DNA of 64,000 nt from Lentzea tibetensis (lineage in GTDB: Bacteria > Actinomycetota > Actinomycetes > Mycobacteriales > Pseudonocardiaceae): NCBI RefSeq assembly GCF_007845675.1, contig NZ_VOBR01000012.1, positions 62,001 to 126,000 on the forward strand, written 5' to 3'. Every line of letters starts with the position of its first letter. The stretch's first letter is position 1. Below are positions 1 to 41,574 of this stretch, in pieces. The translations under genes and the position numbers were made by a program. The notes beneath the pieces are model-generated. The model was not told the DNA's origin, ran no database searches, and was given only the letters and a program-made list of their open reading frames with translations.

Positions 1-1005
1 ATCGCGCGGCAGCTCGGTTTCCGGGCGGACCAGATCGTGCTCAACGGGCTGGGCAGGGACGAGGCGTACGTCCGAGGCTGCATCGACGTCCCCGAAGCGC
101 TGAACGTGCTGGACACCTGGGACGACGTCGACGCGATCGCCCGTGCGGCACAACAGGCGCAGGTCGTGGTCGACGTGGCCGTCCGGGTCACGCCGTGGAT
201 GCCGCTGGAGCTCGACGGCGCGACGCCGCGGGACAGCAAGCTCGGCAACCACGTCGACGGCGAGTCGTTCTGGCGGCTGCTCCGCGCGGTGACGGACAAC
301 CCGTGGCTGAACCTCCGCGGGCTGCACGGGCACCAGTTCACCAGGGCCGCGTCGCTCGAGGACTACGGCCACTACCTCGAGGGCTTCGCCGATGTCGTGG
401 TGGAGGCGGACAAGCGCGGACACCGGTTCGCCGTGCTGGACATCGGCGGCGGTTTCGAGGCGCGGTCCGCACTCGAGGCGCGCGGCGTGCGGATCGACGA
501 CTTCGCCGCCGTCGCGGCCGAGAAGCTGGCCGTCGTGCCCAGCGGCTACCGGCTGGTCGTCGAACCGGGACGCTACGTGGCCGCGGACGCCGCGGTGGGG
601 CTCACCAAGGTCCGCGCCCGCAAACCCCGTGACGGCTTCACCTGGCAGATCGTCGACCTGGCCACCAACGTGCTCATCCCGGTTCCCGGCGCGGAGTACT
701 ACCCGGTCGTGCTCCAGGAGGACGCGGGCGACCGGACGACGATCGCCCGGATCGGCGACGGGACCTGCGCACCGTCGACGATGTGCGACGACGTCGAGCT
801 GCCCGACGTGCGCGGCGGTGCCGGCCTGGCGATGCTGAACTGCGGGGCCTACACCACGGTGTTCAGCCACGTCTGGGGTCCGCGGCCACCGGCGGTGGTG
901 TCGATGGACGGCGACGGCGTCGTCGAGGTGGTCGCGGGGCCCGCCGAGTTCACCGCGATCGCGAAGGCCATGTACGGCTACGACCTGGACCTGGGTGCGT
1001 CGTGA
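1..1005 (+). CDS. PLP-dependent decarboxylase-like enzyme (fold type III), 5' partial
   Basis: The frame is open from base 1, so the start codon and the N-terminal barrel with the PLP lysine lie outside the window; 334 residues are visible. Seen: HGHQF near residue 107, the PLP phosphate loop DIGGGF at 147, EPGRY at 188, and GDGTC (Cys near 257) followed by GAYTTVF near 283. These are the conserved blocks of diaminopimelate/ornithine decarboxylases and of the Y4yA-like relatives found in peptide and siderophore clusters. Family knowledge suggests decarboxylation of an amino acid or peptide-bound residue; the substrate cannot be read from sequence. It overlaps the next gene by GTGA, so it is translationally coupled to the peptide-modification operon that follows. 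Confidence 0.85.
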   Translation: MARQLGFRADQIVLNGLGRDEAYVRGCIDVPEALNVLDTWDDVDAIARAAQQAQVVVDVAVRVTPWMPLELDGATPRDSKLGNHVDGESFWRLLRAVTDNPWLNLRGLHGHQFTRAASLEDYGHYLEGFADVVVEADKRGHRFAVLDIGGGFEARSALEARGVRIDDFAAVAAEKLAVVPSGYRLVVEPGRYVAADAAVGLTKVRARKPRDGFTWQIVDLATNVLIPVPGAEYYPVVLQEDAGDRTTIARIGDGTCAPSTMCDDVELPDVRGGAGLAMLNCGAYTTVFSHVWGPRPPAVVSMDGDGVVEVVAGPAEFTAIAKAMYGYDLDLGAS

Positions 1006-1901
1006 CCATTCCACCACCCGACCTCGTCTCCTGGGCGCACGAGGAGATCGGGGCGATCCAGCTGGCGACACCTCTGTCCACTTCGAACAGTCGGGTGTGG
1101 AGGGCAGCCACCTCGTCGGGTGACTGGGTGCTGAAGCACCTGAGCGACCTGTCCAGCACGCCCGAGGTCGAGTCGTTCGTGCTCGCGGAGCTGCGCGACC
1201 GGCCGGACGTCCGGCCGATCAAGGCGTTCCGGTCGTGCGCGGACGGTTCGACCTACCTCATCGCCGAGTACGCGCACGGGCGGACCCTCGACGAGTGCCT
1301 CGCCACCGCGAAGCCCGCCGCGGCGGGCGGGTGGGCCAGTCAGCTCAACGACCTGATCGACGCGGTCAGCCGGATTCCCGTGACGGGCTACGGAAAAGTC
1401 CGGCTGGGACCGGACGGGCTGTGCGCCGAGCACGACAGTTGGCCTGGGTTCCTCGAGGACTACTTGGAAGGGCAGCGCGTCAAGGCGCCCCGCCTGGCGG
1501 AGCTGCGGTACGACCGGCTGCACCGGGCCCTGGTGGCCGCGCGCGCCGAGCTGGCCGCGGCCGCGCCACTCCCCCGCCTCGTGCTGGCGGACGTGAACCT
1601 GCGCAACTTCGTGGTCGGCACCTCGGGCCTGGTGTGCTGCAACATCCCGGTGCTGTGGGCGGGCGATCCGGCCGCGTCCCGCGGTGAGGCCCTGCTGCAC
1701 TGGGCGGGCACGGCAGGCGAGCCGGTGCTGACCTCCGCGTCCGGGCTGCTGCACTTCTACGCCGCGTTCCACGCCTACGTGATCCTCGCCTACGTCGAGC
1801 GCTTCTCGCCCGAACCGCTCGACCGCGCCACGCCGTGGGGATCCGACACGCCTCTGCTCCAGCTGCTGGACCGGCACCTGCTCGGTGCGGAAGGAGCGTG
1901 A
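1002..1901 (+). CDS. Aminoglycoside phosphotransferase-fold protein, degenerate active site
   Basis: A 299-residue protein starting at GTG in a GTGA overlap with the decarboxylase gene. It has the APH/choline-kinase layout: an ATP-lysine candidate in WVLKHL (near 46), an alpha-C Glu, the hinge AEYAHG (near 88), and a catalytic loop LADVNLRNF where Asp197 and Asn202 of the HGDxxxxN pattern remain but His-Gly has become Leu-Ala. The metal-binding Asp expected about 10-15 residues later is absent (VCCNIPV). It may therefore be a pseudokinase or a partner of the intact kinase encoded next. The fold assignment is good; activity is doubtful. Confidence 0.72.
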   Translation: MTIPPPDLVSWAHEEIGAIQLATPLSTSNSRVWRAATSSGDWVLKHLSDLSSTPEVESFVLAELRDRPDVRPIKAFRSCADGSTYLIAEYAHGRTLDECLATAKPAAAGGWASQLNDLIDAVSRIPVTGYGKVRLGPDGLCAEHDSWPGFLEDYLEGQRVKAPRLAELRYDRLHRALVAARAELAAAAPLPRLVLADVNLRNFVVGTSGLVCCNIPVLWAGDPAASRGEALLHWAGTAGEPVLTSASGLLHFYAAFHAYVILAYVERFSPEPLDRATPWGSDTPLLQLLDRHLLGAEGA

Positions 1902-1905
1902 GCAC

Positions 1906-2952
1906 GTGCCGGTCGCCCAGAAACCGAAGGCGCTGACGGGGTTCGACGACCGCCACCTGCACGCGCTCCGCGTCGCGTACGGGTTGGCGGACGTGGACGC
2001 GCTGCTGCCGGTGATCATGGACGGCGAGTTCGCCTCCCTGCTCGACGTGCGGACCGAGACGAGCCGCAAGGCGCTCCTCGAAGACGAGCTCGGCACGTGG
2101 TTCGTGAAGCAGGTGCCCTGGTACGCCGACGACGAAGCCGAACTGGCGCGCAGGCACGCGCTCACCCGCCAGCTGGCGAGCACCGGACTGGTGCCGCGGA
2201 AGAGGAAGACCGTCGACGGTCTCGGCTGGACCCGGATCGAGGGCGCCGCGTTCGAGGTCACCGAGTACCGCCGCGGGCACCGGTTCGACGGGTCCGCCCG
2301 GCAGGTGCGCGCCGCGGGCTCGGCGCTCGCCACCCTCCACGACTGCCCGATCTCCCACGACGGTCCGGCCGAGGACTACCGGTCGCTCGTCGCGAAGCAC
2401 GTGCGGCTGGCCGAGGAGGTCGGCGCGCCGCCGCGACTGCGCGCCGTGCTCCGGGAGTGCGAGGCAGCTCTGCCCGCACAGCTCCCGGACGACGTCTGGC
2501 ACGCGTTGCCGCAGACGTTCGTGCACGGTGACTACAGCCCGTGGAACGTCGTGTTCGGGCCCGGCGACGTGCTCGCGGTCGTGGACTTCGACAACAGCGA
2601 TGTCGGGTCCCGCCTGCGCGACGTCGTCGAGGGCGTGCTGACCGCGGCCGGTGTGCGCTACCAGGGCGACTCGACGAACTTCGCGCGGCCGTTCCGCTGC
2701 GAGCTCGACGAGGGTCTCGCCGCGGCGTTCCTGGCCGGTTACCTCGGCACCACGCTCACCCCGTTCACCGAGGCCGAGCTGTCGTGTCTCCGCGGTGTCG
2801 TCCGCGCCGTGCACGTCGAGCTCGTCGCGCTGGCGGTCCTGCGCGGCGAGATCGACGACGAGTCGGCGGACGAGGTCGCCGCGTGGCAGGCCGATCCACC
2901 CGATCTGGCGGCTCTCGTCGCTGACGTGCGCCGGATCGGGGTGTCCCCGTGA
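1906..2952 (+). CDS. Aminoglycoside phosphotransferase-family kinase
   Basis: A 348-residue protein. The GTG at 1906 was chosen because AAGGAG (1891-1896) sits 9 bases upstream. It keeps the full catalytic set: lysine in WFVKQV (near 68), HGDYSPWN at 207-214 and the metal-binding VVDFDN with Asp227. It belongs to the APH/HSK2 small-molecule kinase family and would phosphorylate a hydroxyl group using ATP. Its place in the peptide operon beside a hydroxylase-type JmjC gene makes a modified residue or released product a plausible substrate; self-resistance is the alternative. It overlaps the following ATPase gene by four bases. Confidence 0.8.
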   Translation: MPVAQKPKALTGFDDRHLHALRVAYGLADVDALLPVIMDGEFASLLDVRTETSRKALLEDELGTWFVKQVPWYADDEAELARRHALTRQLASTGLVPRKRKTVDGLGWTRIEGAAFEVTEYRRGHRFDGSARQVRAAGSALATLHDCPISHDGPAEDYRSLVAKHVRLAEEVGAPPRLRAVLRECEAALPAQLPDDVWHALPQTFVHGDYSPWNVVFGPGDVLAVVDFDNSDVGSRLRDVVEGVLTAAGVRYQGDSTNFARPFRCELDEGLAAAFLAGYLGTTLTPFTEAELSCLRGVVRAVHVELVALAVLRGEIDDESADEVAAWQADPPDLAALVADVRRIGVSP

Positions 2953-3620
2953 CCCGCGTGGTGCTCGTCGCGGGCAGCAAGGGCGGGGTCGGCCGGACCA
3001 CCGTGGCCGCCGGTCTGGCGTTCGCGCTCGCCCGCGAGCACGAGGTCGGTCTGCTCGACGCCGACCTGTCGTGCCCGAACCTGCCGGTGCTGCTCGGCGT
3101 GAGCGGCCCACCGCGCGTGCTCGACGGGAAGATGGTGCCCGCGAAGGCATCCGACGGCCCGGTGACGGTCTCGCTCATGTCGACCGGCCTGTTCGGCGGG
3201 CCCGACACCGTCTTCGCCTGGCAGGGCCCGTTGCTCCGCGGCGTGGTGCGGCAGTTCGTCCGGGACGTGGACTGGGGGAAACCCGACTACCTCGTCGTCG
3301 ACGTGCCATCGGGCACCGGGCCGGTGCACGCGGCGCTGATCGACGCGCTCGCGCCGGCCACCGCCGTCGTCGTGACCACCTCCGACCGGCTGGCGTTGAC
3401 GGACACGCGCCGCTGCCTGCGTTTTCTCGAGGACGTGGTGCCCGTGGCGGCGATCGTGGAGAACCGGGCGGACGCGGAACCGGCGACCACGGCCGCGTTC
3501 CGCATTCCCTCCGCGGCAGGCGATGGGCCGCCGTGGCGGGACGAACGCGTTTGCCGGGAGCTGGCTCGCTTGGCAACCCATCTCGTATCGAACCAGGGAG
3601 GAACCAATGCTCGACCTTGA
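2949..3620 (+). CDS. Mrp/MinD-like P-loop ATPase
   Basis: A 223-residue soluble protein starting at GTG. The deviant Walker A motif GSKGGVGRTT (residues 9-18) keeps the signature lysine at 11 but has Arg16 where the P-loop Lys normally sits. A Walker A' element LLDADLSCPN lies near 33 and a Walker B-like DYLVVDVPSG near 113. Family members (Mrp/NBP35, MinD, ArsA) are dimeric ATPases in metal-cluster transfer, positioning or protein delivery. In this operon it could power delivery or assembly of the modification machinery; that is inference. It overlaps the oxygenase gene by 14 bases. Confidence 0.75.
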   Translation: MTRVVLVAGSKGGVGRTTVAAGLAFALAREHEVGLLDADLSCPNLPVLLGVSGPPRVLDGKMVPAKASDGPVTVSLMSTGLFGGPDTVFAWQGPLLRGVVRQFVRDVDWGKPDYLVVDVPSGTGPVHAALIDALAPATAVVVTTSDRLALTDTRRCLRFLEDVVPVAAIVENRADAEPATTAAFRIPSAAGDGPPWRDERVCRELARLATHLVSNQGGTNARP

Positions 3621-4542
3621 CCTCGCGACGCTCGTGGCGCCACACACGATCGAGGGCTTCCTCGGCGGCGAATGGCCGCGCGACCCGTACATCAGCGTGG
3701 AGAGCGAGGAACGGGTCGCGGCGTTCGCCGAGGCCGTTCCGGAGCTCAACTCGGCGGAGGCCCTGCTGTCCGGCTGGCAGGACCGGGTCAGCCTGATGAG
3801 CCCCAAGGGGTTCCGGGCGTCCGTTCCGGACGGTCGCAGCGCACTTCCGTTCCTGCACCAGGGTTTCACCTGCTACCTGCGCAACCTCGAGAACCACATC
3901 CCGGTGCTGTCGAGCCTGCTGGACAACGTCGCCGTGCAGCTCGGCGTGCCGCGGAAGTACCTGATCTGCGAGGTGTTCTGCTCCGAAGGCGAGAGCGGCG
4001 TCGCGATGCACAGCGACTACGACCACAACTTCGCGCTCCTGCTGCGCGGCGCGAAGCGGTGGACGTACTCGCGCAACACCCACATCCGCCACGCCACGAA
4101 CACCATCATCGGTGGTGACCGCCCGCAGCGGGACCTGCGCCAGCTCGAGTTCGCGACGAGTCTTCCGCTGCCGCACAAGCAGGCCGACGACGCGTACGAC
4201 GTCACCGTGCGCGGCGGCGGCATGGTGTTCCTCCCGCGCGACTGGTGGCACCAGACCCAGGCCATCGGCGAGTGCATGCAGCTGAACGTCGCGGTGAAGG
4301 GCCCGATGTGGCTCACGGTGTTCCAGGAGTCGCTGACCGAGATGCTGCTGCCCGACGTCGAGTGGCGGGACATGGCCTACGGCATCGTCGGTGACGACAC
4401 CAGCCGTGAGGCGGCGCTCGCCACGTTCGCCGAGCTGATCGGCCGGTTCCGGAAGGAGACGTCCGGCGACAGCGACCTCGAGCTGGCCACCCGGCTGATC
4501 GAGGCCGCGGGTTACGGCCGCGAGGTCACGCCGGATGCCTGA
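3607..4542 (+). CDS. JmjC/cupin-8-type Fe(II)/2-oxoglutarate oxygenase
   Basis: A 311-residue protein with a strong GGGAGGA ribosome-binding site six bases before the ATG. The iron facial triad is visible as HSD (His135, Asp137) and a distal His215 in RDWWHQ, spaced as in JmjC and ROXA/FIH-like hydroxylases; RGAKRWTY after the first motif and LNVAVKG after the last match the double-stranded beta-helix core. Members hydroxylate side chains of proteins or peptides. Next to a peptide gene and a PqqD-type binding protein, the likely substrate is the 21-residue peptide (inference). The ATG of the next gene lies inside its end. Confidence 0.83.
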   Translation: MLDLDLATLVAPHTIEGFLGGEWPRDPYISVESEERVAAFAEAVPELNSAEALLSGWQDRVSLMSPKGFRASVPDGRSALPFLHQGFTCYLRNLENHIPVLSSLLDNVAVQLGVPRKYLICEVFCSEGESGVAMHSDYDHNFALLLRGAKRWTYSRNTHIRHATNTIIGGDRPQRDLRQLEFATSLPLPHKQADDAYDVTVRGGGMVFLPRDWWHQTQAIGECMQLNVAVKGPMWLTVFQESLTEMLLPDVEWRDMAYGIVGDDTSREAALATFAELIGRFRKETSGDSDLELATRLIEAAGYGREVTPDA

Positions 4543-5575
4543 GCACCCGAACGGCCTGCACCGGTACCGCTTCGCCTGCGGGAGGAGCGAGGTCGACGTG
4601 CGCACCGACGTGCGGACGGCCGCCGAGCTCGACGGGTTGAGCAGGCCGTTCTTCCAGCGCAAGCCGGTGAGCTCCGACAGTGCGCCCGCACCACTGGTGT
4701 GGGCCACGACGGCGCCACCGGCAGGCGAGGACTGGGAGCGGCTGACCTTCTCGTCGGAGACCGAGCCCGACCGGGTCCTGTGGGTGAACCACGCGCGGCG
4801 GGAGATCGCGTTCGTCGCTCCCCCGTCGGCGTGGCGCACGCAGCAACTGCTGCGCTCCGTGCGCAACCTGATCCGCTGGCAGGCCTACGAACGCGGTGAG
4901 CTCTTCGTGCACGGCGGCATGGTGGCCGTCGGCGACGTCGGCATCGCGTTCCTCGGCCGCAAGCGGGCGGGCAAGACCTCCAACATCCTCAGCGCCCTCA
5001 TCAACGCCGCGGCGGACTTCGTGTCCAACGACGACCTGGTGCTGGCGCCGGGCCCGGACGGTGTCGTCGGGCAGGGCTACCCGCGCGCGATCACCATCCG
5101 GCTCGACTCGCTGATGGCGGTCACCAAGGAAGACCAGCGGTTGCGCAAGCTCGTGCACGACGTGAAGCACCCGATCAACCACCACCGGGTGCAGGAGAGC
5201 CTGTTCGTGCGGTGCGCGGAGCTGGTCGTGGCCGCGGGAACCGAGCTGCGGCCACGGCATCCGCTCCAGGTCGTGGCCTTCCCGCAGTTCGTCGACGCCG
5301 GCGAGCGCACCGGTGTGGAAAAGCTCGACCGGGCCGAGGCCGCGGAACTGCTCGCGGAGCACACCGAGTCCGAGGCCACCGACCACGATCCTTTCCTGGC
5401 CTCGTGGTTCCCCTCGTACGACGCGGCCGCCCGCACCGCGGTCACCGACCAGCTGCTGGACTCGGCGACGTTCCTGCGGCTGAGGCAGGACTTCGACGAC
5501 ATGGGTTCGGCGACCTCGGCACTGCTCGAGGCCGCCGGCCTCGCGGCGCCGGTGCCGGCGGGGACCCGGCGGTGA
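4535..5575 (+). CDS. HPr kinase-like P-loop protein
   Basis: A 346-residue protein. The first ~110 residues resemble the variable N-terminus of HprK-like proteins of RiPP clusters. The P-loop GRKRAGKTS is at 141-149, after VHGGMVAVGD, and the acidic FVSNDDLVL near 166-175 fits the HprK nucleotide/metal site. Stand-alone HprK homologues in lasso-peptide clusters phosphorylate the C-terminal residue of the precursor (established for paeninodin-type systems). That makes this a candidate peptide kinase acting on the short precursor encoded downstream. It overlaps its upstream neighbour by 8 bases and its downstream neighbour by 4. Confidence 0.78.
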   Translation: MPEHPNGLHRYRFACGRSEVDVRTDVRTAAELDGLSRPFFQRKPVSSDSAPAPLVWATTAPPAGEDWERLTFSSETEPDRVLWVNHARREIAFVAPPSAWRTQQLLRSVRNLIRWQAYERGELFVHGGMVAVGDVGIAFLGRKRAGKTSNILSALINAAADFVSNDDLVLAPGPDGVVGQGYPRAITIRLDSLMAVTKEDQRLRKLVHDVKHPINHHRVQESLFVRCAELVVAAGTELRPRHPLQVVAFPQFVDAGERTGVEKLDRAEAAELLAEHTESEATDHDPFLASWFPSYDAAARTAVTDQLLDSATFLRLRQDFDDMGSATSALLEAAGLAAPVPAGTRR

Positions 5576-6462
5576 CCCGCGCGCTGCTCGTCGACCTGGA
5601 CGGGGTGCTGCGACGCCGGGACCCCCGCGTGGTGCACGGCTGCGAGGAGGAGGCCGGACTGCCCGCGGGCAGCATCCTGGCCGCCGCGTTCGAGCCGAAC
5701 CTGCTGACCGCGGCGGTGACCGGCCGCATCACCCAGAACCAGTGGGAGAACGCGGTCATCATGGAGCTGTCGGGCCGTCACCCCGACGCGGACACCCGGC
5801 CCGCGGTCCGGCGGTGCCTGGGGGACGTGGGTCACCTCGACCCCGAGGTGCTGGCCGTCGTGGACGCCGTCCGTCCACATGCGACTGTCTGCCTCGTCAG
5901 CAACGCCACCAGCAGGCTGCACGCCGACCTGGAGGCGCTCGGACTCACCGACCACGTCGACCACGTCGTGTCCTCGGCAGATCTCGGGGTGACGAAACCG
6001 GATCCCCGCGTCCTGGTCGCGGCGGCCCGGCTGTCCGGCGCACCACCGGAGCACTGCCTCGTGGTGGACGACGCGGCCGGGGTCACCGCGGCCGCCGAGG
6101 ACGTCGGCATGACCGGCCACACGTTCACCGCCACGACCGCGCTGGAGCAGGCGGTCGAGCACTGGCTCACGCGAGAAGCCCCAGGTGGCCGGGCTACCGG
6201 GGCGCTCTGCCTCGATCCTGACGATCGGGTGCTGCTCGTGCAGCGGCAGGACCCGGTCAGCGGCGACCTGCTCTGGGAGCCACCGGGCGGGCAGAACGAC
6301 GCCGTGCGCAGGTACCTCGACGTCCGGTGGTGGACGTGGAACGAGGTGCTCGGCGCGCGCGAACGGATCGAACCGGCCGAACTGGCCTCCCTCCTGCGTG
6401 CCACGGCGCCGTCCGGCCCGTGGCGTTCGGCGGGCCGAATTGCCGGCGACGCACTGCAATAA
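5572..6462 (+). CDS. HAD-family hydrolase with a truncated C-terminal Nudix-like region
   Basis: A 296-residue protein starting at GTG (GTGA overlap). Residues 1-200 are a HAD phosphatase: DLDGVL (nucleophile Asp8, Asp10), LVSNAT near 107, and TKPDPR plus VVDDAAG for motifs III/IV. Residues ~205-280 begin and end like a Nudix domain (GALCLDPDDRVLLVQR, EPPGG, then VRWWTWNEV). The segment that should hold the GX5EX7REUXEEXGU catalytic helix is gone: EPPGGQND runs into AVRRYLDVRWW. The HAD half looks competent; the Nudix half cannot be catalytic. It is the last gene before a hairpin-poly-T element. Confidence 0.8.
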   Translation: MTRALLVDLDGVLRRRDPRVVHGCEEEAGLPAGSILAAAFEPNLLTAAVTGRITQNQWENAVIMELSGRHPDADTRPAVRRCLGDVGHLDPEVLAVVDAVRPHATVCLVSNATSRLHADLEALGLTDHVDHVVSSADLGVTKPDPRVLVAAARLSGAPPEHCLVVDDAAGVTAAAEDVGMTGHTFTATTALEQAVEHWLTREAPGGRATGALCLDPDDRVLLVQRQDPVSGDLLWEPPGGQNDAVRRYLDVRWWTWNEVLGARERIEPAELASLLRATAPSGPWRSAGRIAGDALQ

Positions 6463-6494: not shown

Positions 6495-6520
6495 GTGGCA
6501 GTTCGAACCGCCACTTTTTT
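6495..6520 (+). terminator. Hairpin followed by six T, terminator or attenuator ahead of the peptide gene
   Basis: GTGGC (6495-6499) pairs with GCCAC (6510-6514), the inner GTTCGAAC is self-complementary, and TTTTTT follows at 6515-6520. It can end the upstream operon. If a promoter exists just before it (TAGGGT at 6481-6486 is a weak -10 candidate inside the dyad GACTA-GGGTTCT-TAGTC), it would instead act as a leader attenuator for the peptide gene. Confidence 0.6.
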
Positions 6521-6547
6521 CAAGATGCAAGTTAGGGGGTGATTTTC

Positions 6548-6613
6548 ATGCGCAACTACTCCAAGCCGGCCCTCCGCAAGGTGAGCATCCGCAAGGCTGT
6601 CATCGGCATCTGA
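6548..6613 (+). CDS. 21-residue leader-like precursor or scaffold peptide
   Basis: The peptide starts at ATG 6548 behind AGGGGG (6534-6539, spacing 8) and ends at TGA 6611-6613. It begins MRNYSKPALRK and ends AVIGI. Tyr4-x-x-Pro7-x-Leu9 is the YxxPxL motif that PqqD-like recognition proteins (B1 proteins) bind in lasso leader peptides. In lasso leaders the Leu lies 12 residues before the cleavage site; applying that spacing here leaves only the final Ile as core. It is basic (three Lys, three Arg) and has no Cys, Thr or acidic acceptor. It sits in the only non-overlapping gap of the operon, just before the recognition protein. Reality of the gene is supported by RBS, position and motif; function is inferred. 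Confidence 0.72.
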   Translation: MRNYSKPALRKVSIRKAVIGI

Positions 6614-6623
6614 GGCTAAGCCC

Positions 6624-6657
6624 GAAATGGTGCCAGCAGGCCTGCTGGCACCATTTC
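6624..6657 (+). terminator. Perfect 34-bp palindrome behind the peptide gene
   Basis: GAAATGGTGCCAGCAGG (6624-6640) is directly followed by its exact reverse complement (6641-6657), giving a stem of about 15 bp with a tetraloop and only a weak T tail. It lies between the peptide gene and the PqqD-like gene. Such hairpins in RiPP operons often act as partial terminators or mRNA stabilisers, raising precursor levels over enzyme levels. Confidence 0.65.
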
Positions 6658-6681: not shown

Positions 6682-6936
6682 ATGGACAAGCCGAACCAGG
6701 CATTCGACGTCCGGTTCAACAACACGCCGGACGGCCCCATCCTCGTGCGCGGCCACGACGCGTTCGAGCTCAACGACGTCGGCCTGGCGATCTGGGAGCG
6801 GTGCGACGGCGTGCACTCCCAGCAGGACATCGTCGAGGAGATCCAGGCCCTCTACGACGTCACGTACGACCAGGCCGAGGCGGACGTCGAGTTCTTCCTC
6901 ACCGAGCTGGGAAAGGCACACCTGCTCGATGAGTAG
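6682..6936 (+). CDS. PqqD-like peptide recognition protein (RRE)
   Basis: An 84-residue stand-alone PqqD/RRE domain. Seen: the first strands with DGPILVRG, the ELNDVGLAIW block (residues 29-38), CDGVHSQQDIVEEI, YDVTYDQAEADVEFFL and a closing LGKAHLLDE. This is the standard winged-helix RiPP recognition element that binds leader peptides and presents them to modifying enzymes. Its presence next to a peptide with YxxPxL is the main reason to treat the locus as a peptide pathway. It overlaps the following membrane-protein gene by 8 bases. Confidence 0.9.
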   Translation: MDKPNQAFDVRFNNTPDGPILVRGHDAFELNDVGLAIWERCDGVHSQQDIVEEIQALYDVTYDQAEADVEFFLTELGKAHLLDE

Positions 6937-7657
6937 CGGGCGGAGCCGGTCCGCCACCGCGGCCGGCGCGGTAGCGGTCGTGTCGATCGGCGCGATCCCG
7001 TTCGTCAGCGACTTCCCGGTCGCCGTCGCCGCGCTGGCCTACCTGGCGATCCTGGCGACCGGCAGAACGCGCTTGTCCTGGCTCGGCAAAGGGCTGGCCG
7101 GCCGGATCGTGCGCAGGCTGGTGCGCGTCGCGATCTTCTTCGTGCCGGTCCCGTTCGTCGCCACCGTGACGTGGTCGGGCGGTGTCGTCGAGTCGCTCGT
7201 CGCGGTCGCGTTCGCGTTCGCCCTCCTCGCCCCCGACCGCCGGAACATCGTGCGCGAGCTGAGCCCGGCGCGACTCGCCCTGCGGAGCTACCGCAGCGGG
7301 GACGAACCGCTCCGCGACTTCATCGCGTTCGCCGGCGCCGGTGTGGCCCAGGAGTACTTCTACCGCGGCGTGGTGCTGACGGCACTGCTGCCGCAGCTCG
7401 GCTGGTTCGCGATCCTCCCGGCCGCCGCGATGTTCGTCTTCGAACACGTCGCACAGGGCGGCGGACTGCACTTCGACCGCCGGGACCTGATCAACCAGAC
7501 CATCATGAGCATTGTTTTCGGCGCCTTGGCGATTCACGCGGGCTCCGTGCTCCCCGCCGTGATCGGTCACACGGTCTACAACCTGCCGAACGTCATTCAG
7601 ATTTTCGTTCGGATTCACGCCCAACGCTCTGATCGGAGGATTCGCCATGACGGCTGA
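6929..7657 (+). CDS. CPBP (CAAX-like) family integral membrane protein, catalytic Glu replaced
   Basis: A 242-residue polytopic membrane protein with hydrophobic segments near 10-45, 65-100, 130-155, 165-185 and 205-225. The three CPBP/Rce1 motifs can be located: QEYFYRG (EExxxR with the first Glu as Gln, near 136), FEHVAQGG near 168 and HTVYN near 214. Rce1-like members are intramembrane endopeptidases, and some serve in bacteriocin maturation or immunity. Here the Glu-to-Gln change at the general-base position makes proteolysis uncertain. Within the operon it could process, export or confer immunity to the peptide product. Confidence 0.78.
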   Translation: MSSGRSRSATAAGAVAVVSIGAIPFVSDFPVAVAALAYLAILATGRTRLSWLGKGLAGRIVRRLVRVAIFFVPVPFVATVTWSGGVVESLVAVAFAFALLAPDRRNIVRELSPARLALRSYRSGDEPLRDFIAFAGAGVAQEYFYRGVVLTALLPQLGWFAILPAAAMFVFEHVAQGGGLHFDRRDLINQTIMSIVFGALAIHAGSVLPAVIGHTVYNLPNVIQIFVRIHAQRSDRRIRHDG

Positions 7658-8450
7658 CCTGGGTAGGCCTGAACTGACCGGTGAAGTGTGGGCCCGGCGG
7701 ATCGCGGTCGGCAGGCAGATCGTCGAGCGCTACCCGGCGACCAGGATCAGCTTTCTGAGCGGATCGTTCCTCGACGGCTTCGCCACCCCCACCTCGGACC
7801 TCGACATCTTCGTGCTGGTCGACAACGGCGCGGAGGTGGCGAGCGCGGGATCGGCGAGTTTCGACGCCGACGGACGACGCATCGACATCGACTACGCGGA
7901 CGACGTCACGGTCGACACCGAGGTGTGGACGGTCGACTCGATCGTCTCCATCGCGACCGAGCTCGAGAAGATCGACCTCGCGAACTGGAACGCCGCGGGA
8001 GGCATCGAGGGGATCAAGCTGACCGTCGCGCACCGCCTGCGGATCGGCGAACCGCTGACCGGCGCGAAGGAGTTCGCCGCGCTGCGCGACCTCTTCGACT
8101 GGCCGCGGCTCAGCACGGTCATCAGGAACCGTTGCCTTGCGGCGTACAACAGTCTGGCGGACGACGCGATCGGCGCGATCAAGTCGGGTGACGGGATGAC
8201 GTCGGTCCTGATGTCGCGTGACGCGCTCGGCGCCGCGGCGGACGCGCTCACCGCGGCGTTCGGCCACACCAACGCGAAGTCGAAGTGGCGCTGGCGCAAG
8301 TTCGGAGTGCTGGGCCTCACCGAGGACGCCGAGTCGTACCGCCGGGCCGAGTTCACCACGGGCGACACGGACGCCGCCATGATCGCCAGCAGCAAGGCGA
8401 GGCTGCGCCTGGCATCCGAGTTCGCGGTCAAGGCGAGCGCCCGGCCATGA
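7647..8450 (+). CDS. Pol-beta/MNT-type nucleotidyltransferase
   Basis: A 267-residue protein with a GGAGG site before ATG 7647. SGSFLDGFATPTSDLDIFV (near residues 34-52) holds the GS...DxD core of polymerase-beta-like nucleotidyltransferases, and IDIDYADDV near 75-83 could provide the third acidic residue. The C-terminal half is mostly helical, as in aminoglycoside adenylyltransferases. It would transfer AMP or another nucleotide to a hydroxyl or phosphate. In this operon it could modify the peptide terminus or product, or act as self-resistance. It overlaps both neighbours (11 bases and 4 bases). Confidence 0.78.
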   Translation: MTADLGRPELTGEVWARRIAVGRQIVERYPATRISFLSGSFLDGFATPTSDLDIFVLVDNGAEVASAGSASFDADGRRIDIDYADDVTVDTEVWTVDSIVSIATELEKIDLANWNAAGGIEGIKLTVAHRLRIGEPLTGAKEFAALRDLFDWPRLSTVIRNRCLAAYNSLADDAIGAIKSGDGMTSVLMSRDALGAAADALTAAFGHTNAKSKWRWRKFGVLGLTEDAESYRRAEFTTGDTDAAMIASSKARLRLASEFAVKASARP

Positions 8451-9673
8451 GCCAGGCGGAGCTGCGCGAGGGGCCGAGCCGGCAACGAATGTTCTGGCTC
8501 GGCCGCGGCGTGTCGTTCTTCGGCAGCGAGTTCTCCACGCTGGGGATTCCGCTCTACTGCGTCGTCGTGCTCGGCGCGGGTCCCGCCGAGATGGGACTGC
8601 TCGTCGCGTGCGCCGGACTGCCCGCGCTGCTCGGCCCGTTCGTGGCAGGCCCCGTGGTCGACCTGTTCGACCGCAGGCTCCTGCTCGTCGTCACCGACCT
8701 CGTGCGCTGCGCCGCACTGCTCGCCGTCCTGCCGCTGCACTGGGCCGGGGCGCTCAACCTCACCGTCCTGTTGGGACTTCAGTTCGTGCTCGGCGCGGCA
8801 TCGACGTTGTACGACACCGCGTTGTTCGCGTTCCTGCCGAGCTACTTCCCGCCGCACCAGCTGGCGATGGCGAACGGCCGGAGCTCGGCCCTGCACAGCG
8901 CCGCGTCGCTGGCCGGTCCGAGCCTCGCGGGTGCACTCGTCCAGGCCGTCGGTGCCGTCGCCGCGATCGTCGTCGACGGCATCTCGTTCCTGGTGTCGGC
9001 GTTGACGATCGGCCACAGCACCGCGGAGGTGCCGACGACCAAACGGTCATCGGGCGGCTACAAGGCGTTCCTGGCCGACGGGTTCAGGGCCCTGCGGGAC
9101 ACGCCGCCGGTGTTGCTGCTCGGATTCTCCAGCTGCCTGTTCAACCTCGCCGCGGGCGCCTCCCAGGCCGTGATCGTCTACTTCGCGATCAAGGTGCTGG
9201 GTTTTCCGGCACTGCTGCTCGGCCTCGCCACCTCCGCCGGTCTCGTGGGCGGCCTGGTCACCGGACTCGTCGCCCGCAAGCTGTCCGACGCGCTGGGCCT
9301 GCGCACCATGCTCAGCGGCGGGATCCTCCTGGCGAGCGTGGCGGAGTTCGCCATCGCGGTGGCACCCGCCGACAAGGCCGTCGCCTTCGCCGTCATCGCC
9401 ACCGCGCAGTGCGTTGCCACCTCAGGCGCTGTTGCCTACATGACCGCCAACGCGACCCTGCGCCAGCACCTCGTGCCGGAACACGTGCGCGGCCGGGTGT
9501 TCGCGACGTTGCGCCTGTTGACGAGGGGCGTCATGCCGCTCGGCGCGGCCGCGGGCGGTCTGCTGGCGGCCGGGACGTCACCGAGGTTCGCGATCGCCGC
9601 CGCAGGGATGGGACAGCTGGTGGCGGCCCTGTGGTTGTTCACCCGCCGCCGGGTGCTCCCCGACCGCCTGTAG
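8447..9673 (+). CDS. MFS efflux transporter
   Basis: A 408-residue protein starting at the ATG in an ATGA overlap with the nucleotidyltransferase gene. About 12 hydrophobic segments, with DLFDRRLLLVVTD near 72-84 as the loop 2-3 MFS signature (DrxxRRxxl), place it with the EntS/MFS_3 exporters. As the last gene of the operon it most likely exports the pathway product or gives self-protection. It ends 7 bases before a convergent small gene. Confidence 0.88.
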   Translation: MSQAELREGPSRQRMFWLGRGVSFFGSEFSTLGIPLYCVVVLGAGPAEMGLLVACAGLPALLGPFVAGPVVDLFDRRLLLVVTDLVRCAALLAVLPLHWAGALNLTVLLGLQFVLGAASTLYDTALFAFLPSYFPPHQLAMANGRSSALHSAASLAGPSLAGALVQAVGAVAAIVVDGISFLVSALTIGHSTAEVPTTKRSSGGYKAFLADGFRALRDTPPVLLLGFSSCLFNLAAGASQAVIVYFAIKVLGFPALLLGLATSAGLVGGLVTGLVARKLSDALGLRTMLSGGILLASVAEFAIAVAPADKAVAFAVIATAQCVATSGAVAYMTANATLRQHLVPEHVRGRVFATLRLLTRGVMPLGAAAGGLLAAGTSPRFAIAAAGMGQLVAALWLFTRRRVLPDRL

Positions 9674-41397: not shown

Positions 41398-41574
41398 ATG
41401 GGCACCGACGACAAGTTCGACGCCAAGGCCGACGAGCTCAAGGGCAAGGTCAAGGAAGGCGTCGGCGAGGCAACCGACGACAAGGGCCTGGAGGCCGAGG
41501 GCAGGACCGACCAGGCCAAGGGCCACCTCAAGGAGTCGGTCGAGAAGGTCAAGGACGCTTTCAAGAAGGACTGA
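41398..41574 (+). CDS. csbD: CsbD-family stress protein
   Basis: A 58-residue, highly charged protein starting at ATG 41398 behind AGGAAGGA. KADELKGKVKEGVGEATDDKGLEAEGRTDQAKG is the complete CsbD signature. These small proteins accumulate under general stress, often controlled by alternative sigma factors. The 244 bases upstream contain no gene. Confidence 0.92.
   Translation: MGTDDKFDAKADELKGKVKEGVGEATDDKGLEAEGRTDQAKGHLKESVEKVKDAFKKD

Follow-up and report, generated by a model that had tools for sequence, protein, structure and literature searches.

Can a peptide of only 21 residues, nearly all of it leader, be a genuine gene product, and what would it be made for? The question was raised by a preliminary description of the window, the whole 64,000-nucleotide stretch of Lentzea tibetensis DNA analyzed here, which singled out a 21-residue ORF directly before a PqqD-like gene. 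The ORF lies where it was placed and the named residues, Tyr4, Pro7 and Leu9, are present: the leader-only peptide MRNYSKPALRKVSIRKAVIGI is encoded on the plus strand at 6548..6613 by 21 codons, with an ATG at 6548 and a TGA at 6611-6613. It is preceded by a ribosome-binding-like AGGGGG (6534..6539, plus strand), and its stop codon is followed by a perfect 30-base palindrome predicted to form a hairpin (6626..6655, plus strand; fold z -5.5). Between the peptide and the gene cassette upstream of it, a weak terminator-like stem with a T run could be read by eye (6495..6520, plus strand). This stem appears in the predicted fold, yet the fold of the 85-base gap is ordinary (z -0.36), and a consensus terminator scan did not report it.

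We ranked 1139 small ORFs of the window, counting every start codon, with a profile of nine relatives that excluded the window peptide. The window peptide came first (E 0.0033) and the runner-up among distinct ORFs scored E 0.21. A scan blind to peptide sequence, requiring an ORF of 15-45 aa, a ribosome site and a stem of at least 11 bp after the stop, returned the peptide at 6548-6613 as the single match in the 64-kb window. The same scan gave 15 matches in 1.49 Mb (80 AsnRS-type loci) and recovered the peptide in six of the seven peptide loci submitted, missing that of genome G187. The ranking, the scan with its base rate and the strong fold after the stop lead us to reject a chance ORF and confirm that the peptide is a genuine gene. 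Two other small ORFs with a ribosome site and a hairpin were considered and discarded: one at 4764-4895 of locus L003 lies inside a large minus-strand ORF, and one at 41398-41574 of the window (plus strand) encodes a 58-aa CsbD-like stress protein before a strong hairpin. A longer precursor in the operon, which the preliminary description had named as evidence against its reading, was absent from the stretch read, and no YxxP ORF resembling a gene was seen in L003.

The peptide has ten relatives of 22-23 residues, giving a family of 11 peptides of 21-23 residues from clusters in eight genera and three families (by genome handles). All clusters were located through the nucleotidyltransferase (NT) gene of the module described below, so that the presence of NT in 11 of 11 clusters is by construction. 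Searching the window NT in 298 genomes of the family led to G187 and other NT loci. The G187 peptide, MRKYRKPVLRRIDVVKAPISPTI (23 residues), is followed by PqqD, CPBP, NT and MFS genes in the same order as in the window. The same 298 genomes yielded, through their NT loci, the peptides of G115 (MKKYAKPTVSTVSQATVLKANV), G054 (MKKYAKPAVSKVSQATVLKDNT), G010 (MKKYAKPAAAKVSQSTVLKAHT) and G279 (MKKYRKPVAKKVTFGVILGSTP, with a GTG start codon). NT alignments were then searched in 394 genomes of the class and 239 genomes of a further family (f21, which we take to be Streptomycetaceae), as well as in sets of 1, 80 and 25 genomes; the class and f21 searches added the peptides of G303 (MKKYTKPEATKVSFGAVLGLKV), G933 (MKKYTKPATKKVAFGTVLSTVV), G913 (MRKYTKPVAKKVVFGTVLTNVC) and G813 (MKRYIKPTVKKVGAGAVLAAEV). 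The last member, from G832 (MRKYAKPAAKSVTQGTVLRGTA), was matched with E 1.5e-9 by a profile not trained on it. With a profile of the nine 22-mers, the G187 peptide ranked first among 633 small ORFs (E 0.00038). A ten-peptide profile returned, at E < 0.01 among 16387 small ORFs, only the 11 peptides and their alternative starts, and its best score among 28958 small ORFs of 80 control loci was E 1.8. Plasmid searches gave one weak PqqD match and no NT.

All 11 peptides share the beginning M-[KR]-[KRN]-Y-x-K-P. Tyr4, Lys6 and Pro7 are identical throughout and Val12 is found in ten (Ile in G187); the Tyr and Lys codons are invariant, and those of Pro and Val vary. The motif first noted, Tyr-x-x-Pro-x-Leu, therefore survives in its Y-x-K-P part and not in its leucine, which occupies position 9 only in the window and G187 peptides, the other nine having Ala, Val or Thr. 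The window peptide ends 12 residues after Leu9, and since neither Leu9 nor its spacing is conserved, the one-residue core once deduced from lasso spacing is not a property of the family. The end of the peptide behaves differently from the rest: mean pairwise identity among the nine 22-mers (36 pairs) is 0.61 over residues 2-18 and 0.12 over residues 19-22.

Could the peptide be a degenerate lasso precursor that has lost its core? A lasso core has some 15-20 residues, starts with Gly or a similar residue and carries an acidic residue at position 7-9. The window peptide, unlike lasso peptides, has no foldable core, and the 15 window operon proteins scanned include neither B2 (PF13471) nor a cyclase (PF00733). 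The AsnB proteins of two other clusters reach 193 and 175 bits, against a lasso cyclase cut-off of 525. The resemblance to lasso clusters lies in the YxxP(xL) leader motif, the discrete PqqD-type B1 and the presence of kinase and predicted nucleotidyltransferase genes, especially as in bsf, where, in the available text, a kinase acts on the precursor with the help of an RRE and the cluster also includes a predicted nucleotidyltransferase (PMC10368454). YxxP is given as the lasso recognition motif in the accessible part of an RRE survey (PMC12710340), and the window peptide has an Ile at the lasso-type penultimate place (compare the available text of PMC10368454). The ten relatives, however, are nearly equal in length, and a 38-residue lasso-like precursor candidate lies elsewhere in the same genome with B1 and B2 (PF13471), at a locus without a family-profile match (best E 1.6 with the profile of nine 22-mers). 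We rejected the lasso reading, there being no core, no B2 or cyclase among the 15 scanned proteins and no conserved Leu9, and consider a degenerate lasso precursor hardly credible.

Downstream of the peptide lies a compact block of plus-strand genes. It comprises an 84-aa PqqD-like peptide-recognition protein (6682..6936; PF05402, E 4.9e-16), a CPBP/CAAX-type membrane protease (6929..7657; PF02517), an aminoglycoside-nucleotidyltransferase-like NT (7647..8450) and an MFS exporter (8447..9673; PF07690, E 2.7e-39 over 8453-9673), the start of which was placed at 8447 from the reading frame and overlaps the NT stop. The ends of the PqqD, CPBP and NT genes overlap as well, and the family PqqD profile finds PqqD and lasso B1 chains of known structure. 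All 11 peptide clusters contain PqqD and an exporter (nine by tblastn, two by Pfam). Judged by gene content, the constant companions of the peptide are PqqD, NT and an exporter, joined by CPBP in 4 of 11. The ORF thus combines a translation signal, conservation across species and an RRE neighbor, which would class it as an RRE-dependent precursor, a RiPP in the wide sense.

Of the 16 NT loci with PqqD, 11 have the peptide, and of the 19 without PqqD none has it (35 loci in all; Fisher 1e-5, a guide only, since the loci are related, their selection went through NT, and some of them served to train the PqqD and peptide profiles). The remaining five loci with PqqD (L171, L172, L226, L227, L228) have no such peptide within the stretch read. 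The initial interpretation is partly borne out: the peptide is nearly all leader and belongs to a family of such peptides linked to PqqD. We also weighed a regulatory role, in which a short translated ORF and its hairpin would attenuate downstream transcription and the peptide would be chemically idle. A ribosome site, a short ORF and a strong fold after the stop are indeed found in 8 of the 11 members (z <= -3.4 over the 70 bases 3' of the stop). This reading is very improbable, as three families conserve residues 2-18, no NT locus without PqqD has the peptide, and binding of such motifs by PqqD-type proteins is known (available text of PMC12710340). Moreover, no strong 3' fold is found in G115, G054 and G010 (z 0.4, -1.3 and -0.1), where some 7 kb separate the peptide from PqqD, which is on the opposite strand.

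The NT carries a GS...DxD catalytic motif, has the fold of antibiotic-inactivating enzymes, and its model aligns over the full length with ANT(4'), AadA and LinB. PqqD, NT and MFS could accordingly be a resistance and export block to which the neighboring cassette is unrelated. NT would then inactivate the product in the way of aminoglycoside nucleotidyltransferases and the peptide would be a minor helper; APH-like proteins encoded nearby would suit such a block. The NT and PqqD genes, however, touch or overlap in the seven clusters compared (G115, G054, G279, G303, G832, G933 and G913), and simple drug modification offers no evident task for a peptide-recognition protein, so that we consider this explanation improbable. 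Elsewhere the two genes are further apart: CPBP sits between them in the window and G187, and the gap in G813 is about 2 kb. A universal kinase cascade feeding NT was also considered and dropped, because the G279 cluster on C17 and that of G813 show no such genes in the stretches read. In these stretches, NDK-, pyruvate-kinase-, TMP-kinase- or similar genes occur in 9 of the 11 peptide clusters, a count that includes an NDK-type gene about 12 kb from the peptide in G832 and a window NDK match below the Pfam cut-off. Four of the 15 control loci, each of these four an NT locus, have NDK-like genes as well, and the link is at most one with NT. Genes for NDK-like proteins of some 320-330 aa are repeatedly found close to members of this NT family, with or without PqqD (L171 15875-16849, L172 5283-6242, L221 17375-18361 and others).

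What, then, of the enzymes upstream? The plus-strand cassette before the peptide encodes the C-terminal part of a DapDC-type decarboxylase (1..1005), an APH-like protein (1029..1901), an APH/homoserine-kinase-like protein (1885..2952), a ParA/Mrp-type P-loop protein (2949..3620), a JmjC/Cupin_8 protein (3595..4542), an HprK-like protein (4535..5575; no Pfam family, HprK_rel_B at E 0.0011 being below cut-off) and a HAD plus Nudix-like protein (5575..6462; HAD over, Nudix below cut-off). The decarboxylase, which starts upstream of the window, is what had been called simply a PLP enzyme. Beyond the window on the same strand lie genes for a methyltransferase, an S66 peptidase, an AsnRS-like ligase and a weakly NDK-like protein (below cut-off).

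The JmjC, kinase-like, HprK-like and PLP enzymes had been judged suited to chemistry on a terminal residue, and this link to the peptide was the weakest part of the preliminary description. The closest HprK-like relatives among the 298 family genomes, in G215 (54%) and G082 (46%), have much of the cassette in the same neighborhood. An initial search of genome contigs with the JmjC protein gave no relative, and one (59%) was seen at the G215 cassette locus. Neither cassette has PqqD nearby (the PqqD matches of these genomes lie elsewhere) or a peptide-profile match in the stretches examined. Likewise, PqqD, NT and the peptide are absent from all 80 AsnRS-type loci (80 of 93 relatives kept). For these reasons the presence of these enzymes in the cassette is not sufficient ground for regarding them as acting on the peptide, the idea that all of them act on it is weakened, and the upstream cassette is, by its distribution, separable from the peptide. 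Homologous operons without the peptide, named beforehand as grounds for doubt, thus exist for the cassette and not for the PqqD-NT module.

The AsnRS-like ligase (PF00152) has a class II core without the N-terminal anticodon-binding domain. Its profile matches AsnRS 1x54 only at residues 134-428 and also matches archaeal asparagine synthetase A 3p8t. In very diverse bacteria (L060-L139), this ligase often occurs with an S66 peptidase and ATP-grasp/methyltransferase proteins. S66 cluster members were found in 64 of 88 stretches and relatives of the ATP-grasp and methyltransferase frame in 47, for which reason the AsnRS-like ligase with S66 is, on genomic context, a widespread pairing in its own right. 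We found no paper on it in the open-access literature.

Next to the peptide module, the chemistry changes from cluster to cluster. AsnB and AurF accompany it in 9 of 11 clusters, a GATase-QueC cluster with kinases in one (G187), and the AsnRS-like/S66/kinase cassette in the window. The G187 region (L166 9271-16587, minus strand), in which a GATase fused to QueC is found with kinase, HIT and radical-SAM genes, is likely a 7-deazaguanine nucleotide cluster. The smallest cluster, on C17 of G279, holds the peptide, AsnB, CPBP, NT, PqqD, ABC and AurF. The clusters of G115, G054 and G010 are syntenic and contain the same listed enzymes.

Other short ORFs were seen in these regions. In G227, a 20-residue acidic peptide, MQPTKTEEVVDVEALFAVVA (L217 6738-6800, plus strand), has a hairpin and lies directly 5' of AsnB, in an AsnB/AurF/NT cluster with only a weak PqqD match. 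In G082, the 22-residue MTRNHSTGLRPRINKLVVKKAA (L035 17245-17313, plus strand), with a ribosome site and a 15-bp hairpin, lies just 5' of an M16 peptidase gene and divergent from the AsnRS cassette; it is similar to a 20-mer of G279, MTRKHTATLRPKLVIKGKGK (L194 11880-11942), and the two possibly represent another short-peptide family. Small ORFs at L171 8753-8965 (plus strand; no Pfam match) and L194 242-322 (minus strand) share a near-identical tail, VPASKHGLE-(A/T)-I-(T/C)-GASCETGAQ, and look like precursor peptides of another kind.

The best reading of these data, for which we put the chance a little below even, is that PqqD holds the peptide as a carrier or precursor on whose C-terminus chemistry takes place, in the manner of pearlins but without PEARL. 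The peptide would be the ribosomal handle of a small module formed with PqqD, NT, an exporter and sometimes CPBP. PqqD would bind the N-terminal Y-x-K-P segment and present the C-terminus to the enzymes of the neighboring cassette. An adenylate-forming amide-type ligase (AsnB in nine clusters, the AsnRS-like enzyme in the window, the GATase-QueC protein in one) would act at or near that C-terminus, as would NT together with the ligase, and the finished small molecule would be cleaved off, with CPBP as the protease in clusters that have it, and exported. At the level of sequence, there is a peptide family whose N-terminal part is conserved and whose C-terminus is free, most members have the hairpin, NT clusters tie the peptide to PqqD and an exporter, and the neighboring enzymes differ. 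The occurrence of one module beside unrelated chemistries fits the reusable scaffold first proposed, which is plausible rather than proven. Several observations speak against a carrier. The window operon has no known loading enzyme, as no PEARL was found among its 15 proteins (Pfam); only 4 of 11 clusters have CPBP; the two closest relatives of the window cassette have no PqqD nearby; 5 of 16 PqqD-bearing NT loci lack the peptide in the stretch read; and the fold of NT would also suit self-resistance.

The variable C-terminus, too, suits a ribosomal core, and here the carrier meets its main rival, in which residues 1-18 would be the leader and the last two to four residues the core. Ligase, NT and oxygenase would modify this core (AsnB plus AurF, for example, turning its C-terminus into an amide or hydroxamate), and a di- to tetrapeptide would be freed by a protease. 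We rate it as somewhat unlikely, though as real a possibility as the scaffold, because the last four residues vary so strongly; hypervariable against the conserved leader (12% versus 61%), they show the usual leader/core pattern. The smallest cluster, with no obvious small-molecule cassette in our ORF reading, is in line with such a core, and AsnB-AurF pairs are the proposed source of the hydroxamates of actinonin and matlystatin (available text of PMC5719088). On the other side, the syntenic clusters of G115, G054 and G010 keep their enzymes while the tails change (KANV, KDNT and KAHT), and several clusters hold genes that seem superfluous for a tetrapeptide: PKS-like genes in the three syntenic clusters and an aminotransferase-like gene in G303 (both from ORF reading only), ATP-grasp in G933 and QueC in G187 (both by Pfam). 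Hypervariable last residues favor the core, and changing tails in syntenic clusters with complex neighboring chemistry favor the handle.

The carrier reading has its nearest precedent in the pearlins, where C-terminal chemistry on a carrier peptide is accompanied by an RRE protein, a transporter and a membrane protease (available text of PMC9303977). A pearlin pathway attaches an amino acid to the C-terminus of the carrier, modifies it there and then sets it free. As in the pearlin pathways of 3-thiaglutamate, 3-thiahomoleucine and ammosamide, the window has a short peptide with an RRE protein (PqqD), a protease (CPBP) and a transporter (MFS), and the protease is found in 4 of 11 clusters family-wide. 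Unlike them, it has no PEARL (LanB-like and tRNA-dependent) among the 15 operon proteins searched with Pfam, NT stands beside PqqD, and the ligase is AsnB, AsnRS-like or GATase-QueC. The family peptides have 21-23 aa, compared with 50 for TglA (accessible text of PMC9016710). AS-like enzymes acting on the C-terminal carboxylate of a precursor are described in the available text of PMC13060819, and nitrilobacillins, TsrC and ScdTA likewise combine an AsnB-type enzyme with a short precursor. The nitrilobacillin BGC differs in having MNIO and HExxH enzymes, with PqqD unmentioned in the main text of that paper, and the window has an AsnRS-like ligase in place of the AsnB-type enzyme. The actinonin and matlystatin pathways share the AsnB-like plus AurF-like pair, but use NRPS/PKS-type and CoA-bound substrates, and the accessible text does not mention a peptide, PqqD or NT (PMC5719088). 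A new short-peptide system in the available text of PMC12710340 differs from ours in being Pro-rich and having other neighbors. The open-access literature, which leaves most subscription papers outside its coverage, yielded no paper on the combination of peptide, PqqD and NT.

The observation at this locus was right and is more interesting than one locus shows. In a broader version, which we advance tentatively and with some doubt, leader-only peptides of 21-23 residues, bound by PqqD and served by a dedicated NT, would form a general PEARL-free system of exchangeable handles for unrelated pathways, in the manner of a minimal acyl carrier protein. Pathways of hydroxamate-type AsnB/AurF chemistry, of 7-deazaguanine nucleotides and of AsnRS-like amino-acid chemistry would load small molecules onto the peptide, activate them by phosphoryl or nucleotidyl transfer and release them. 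Genes as short as these easily stay unannotated. If the variable tail is a ribosomal core, they would define a RiPP family with cores of two to four residues and AsnB/AurF/NT chemistry. If the carrier reading is true, several mutually unrelated chemistries of natural products would use very small ribosomal peptides as their handles, with no tRNA-dependent loading.
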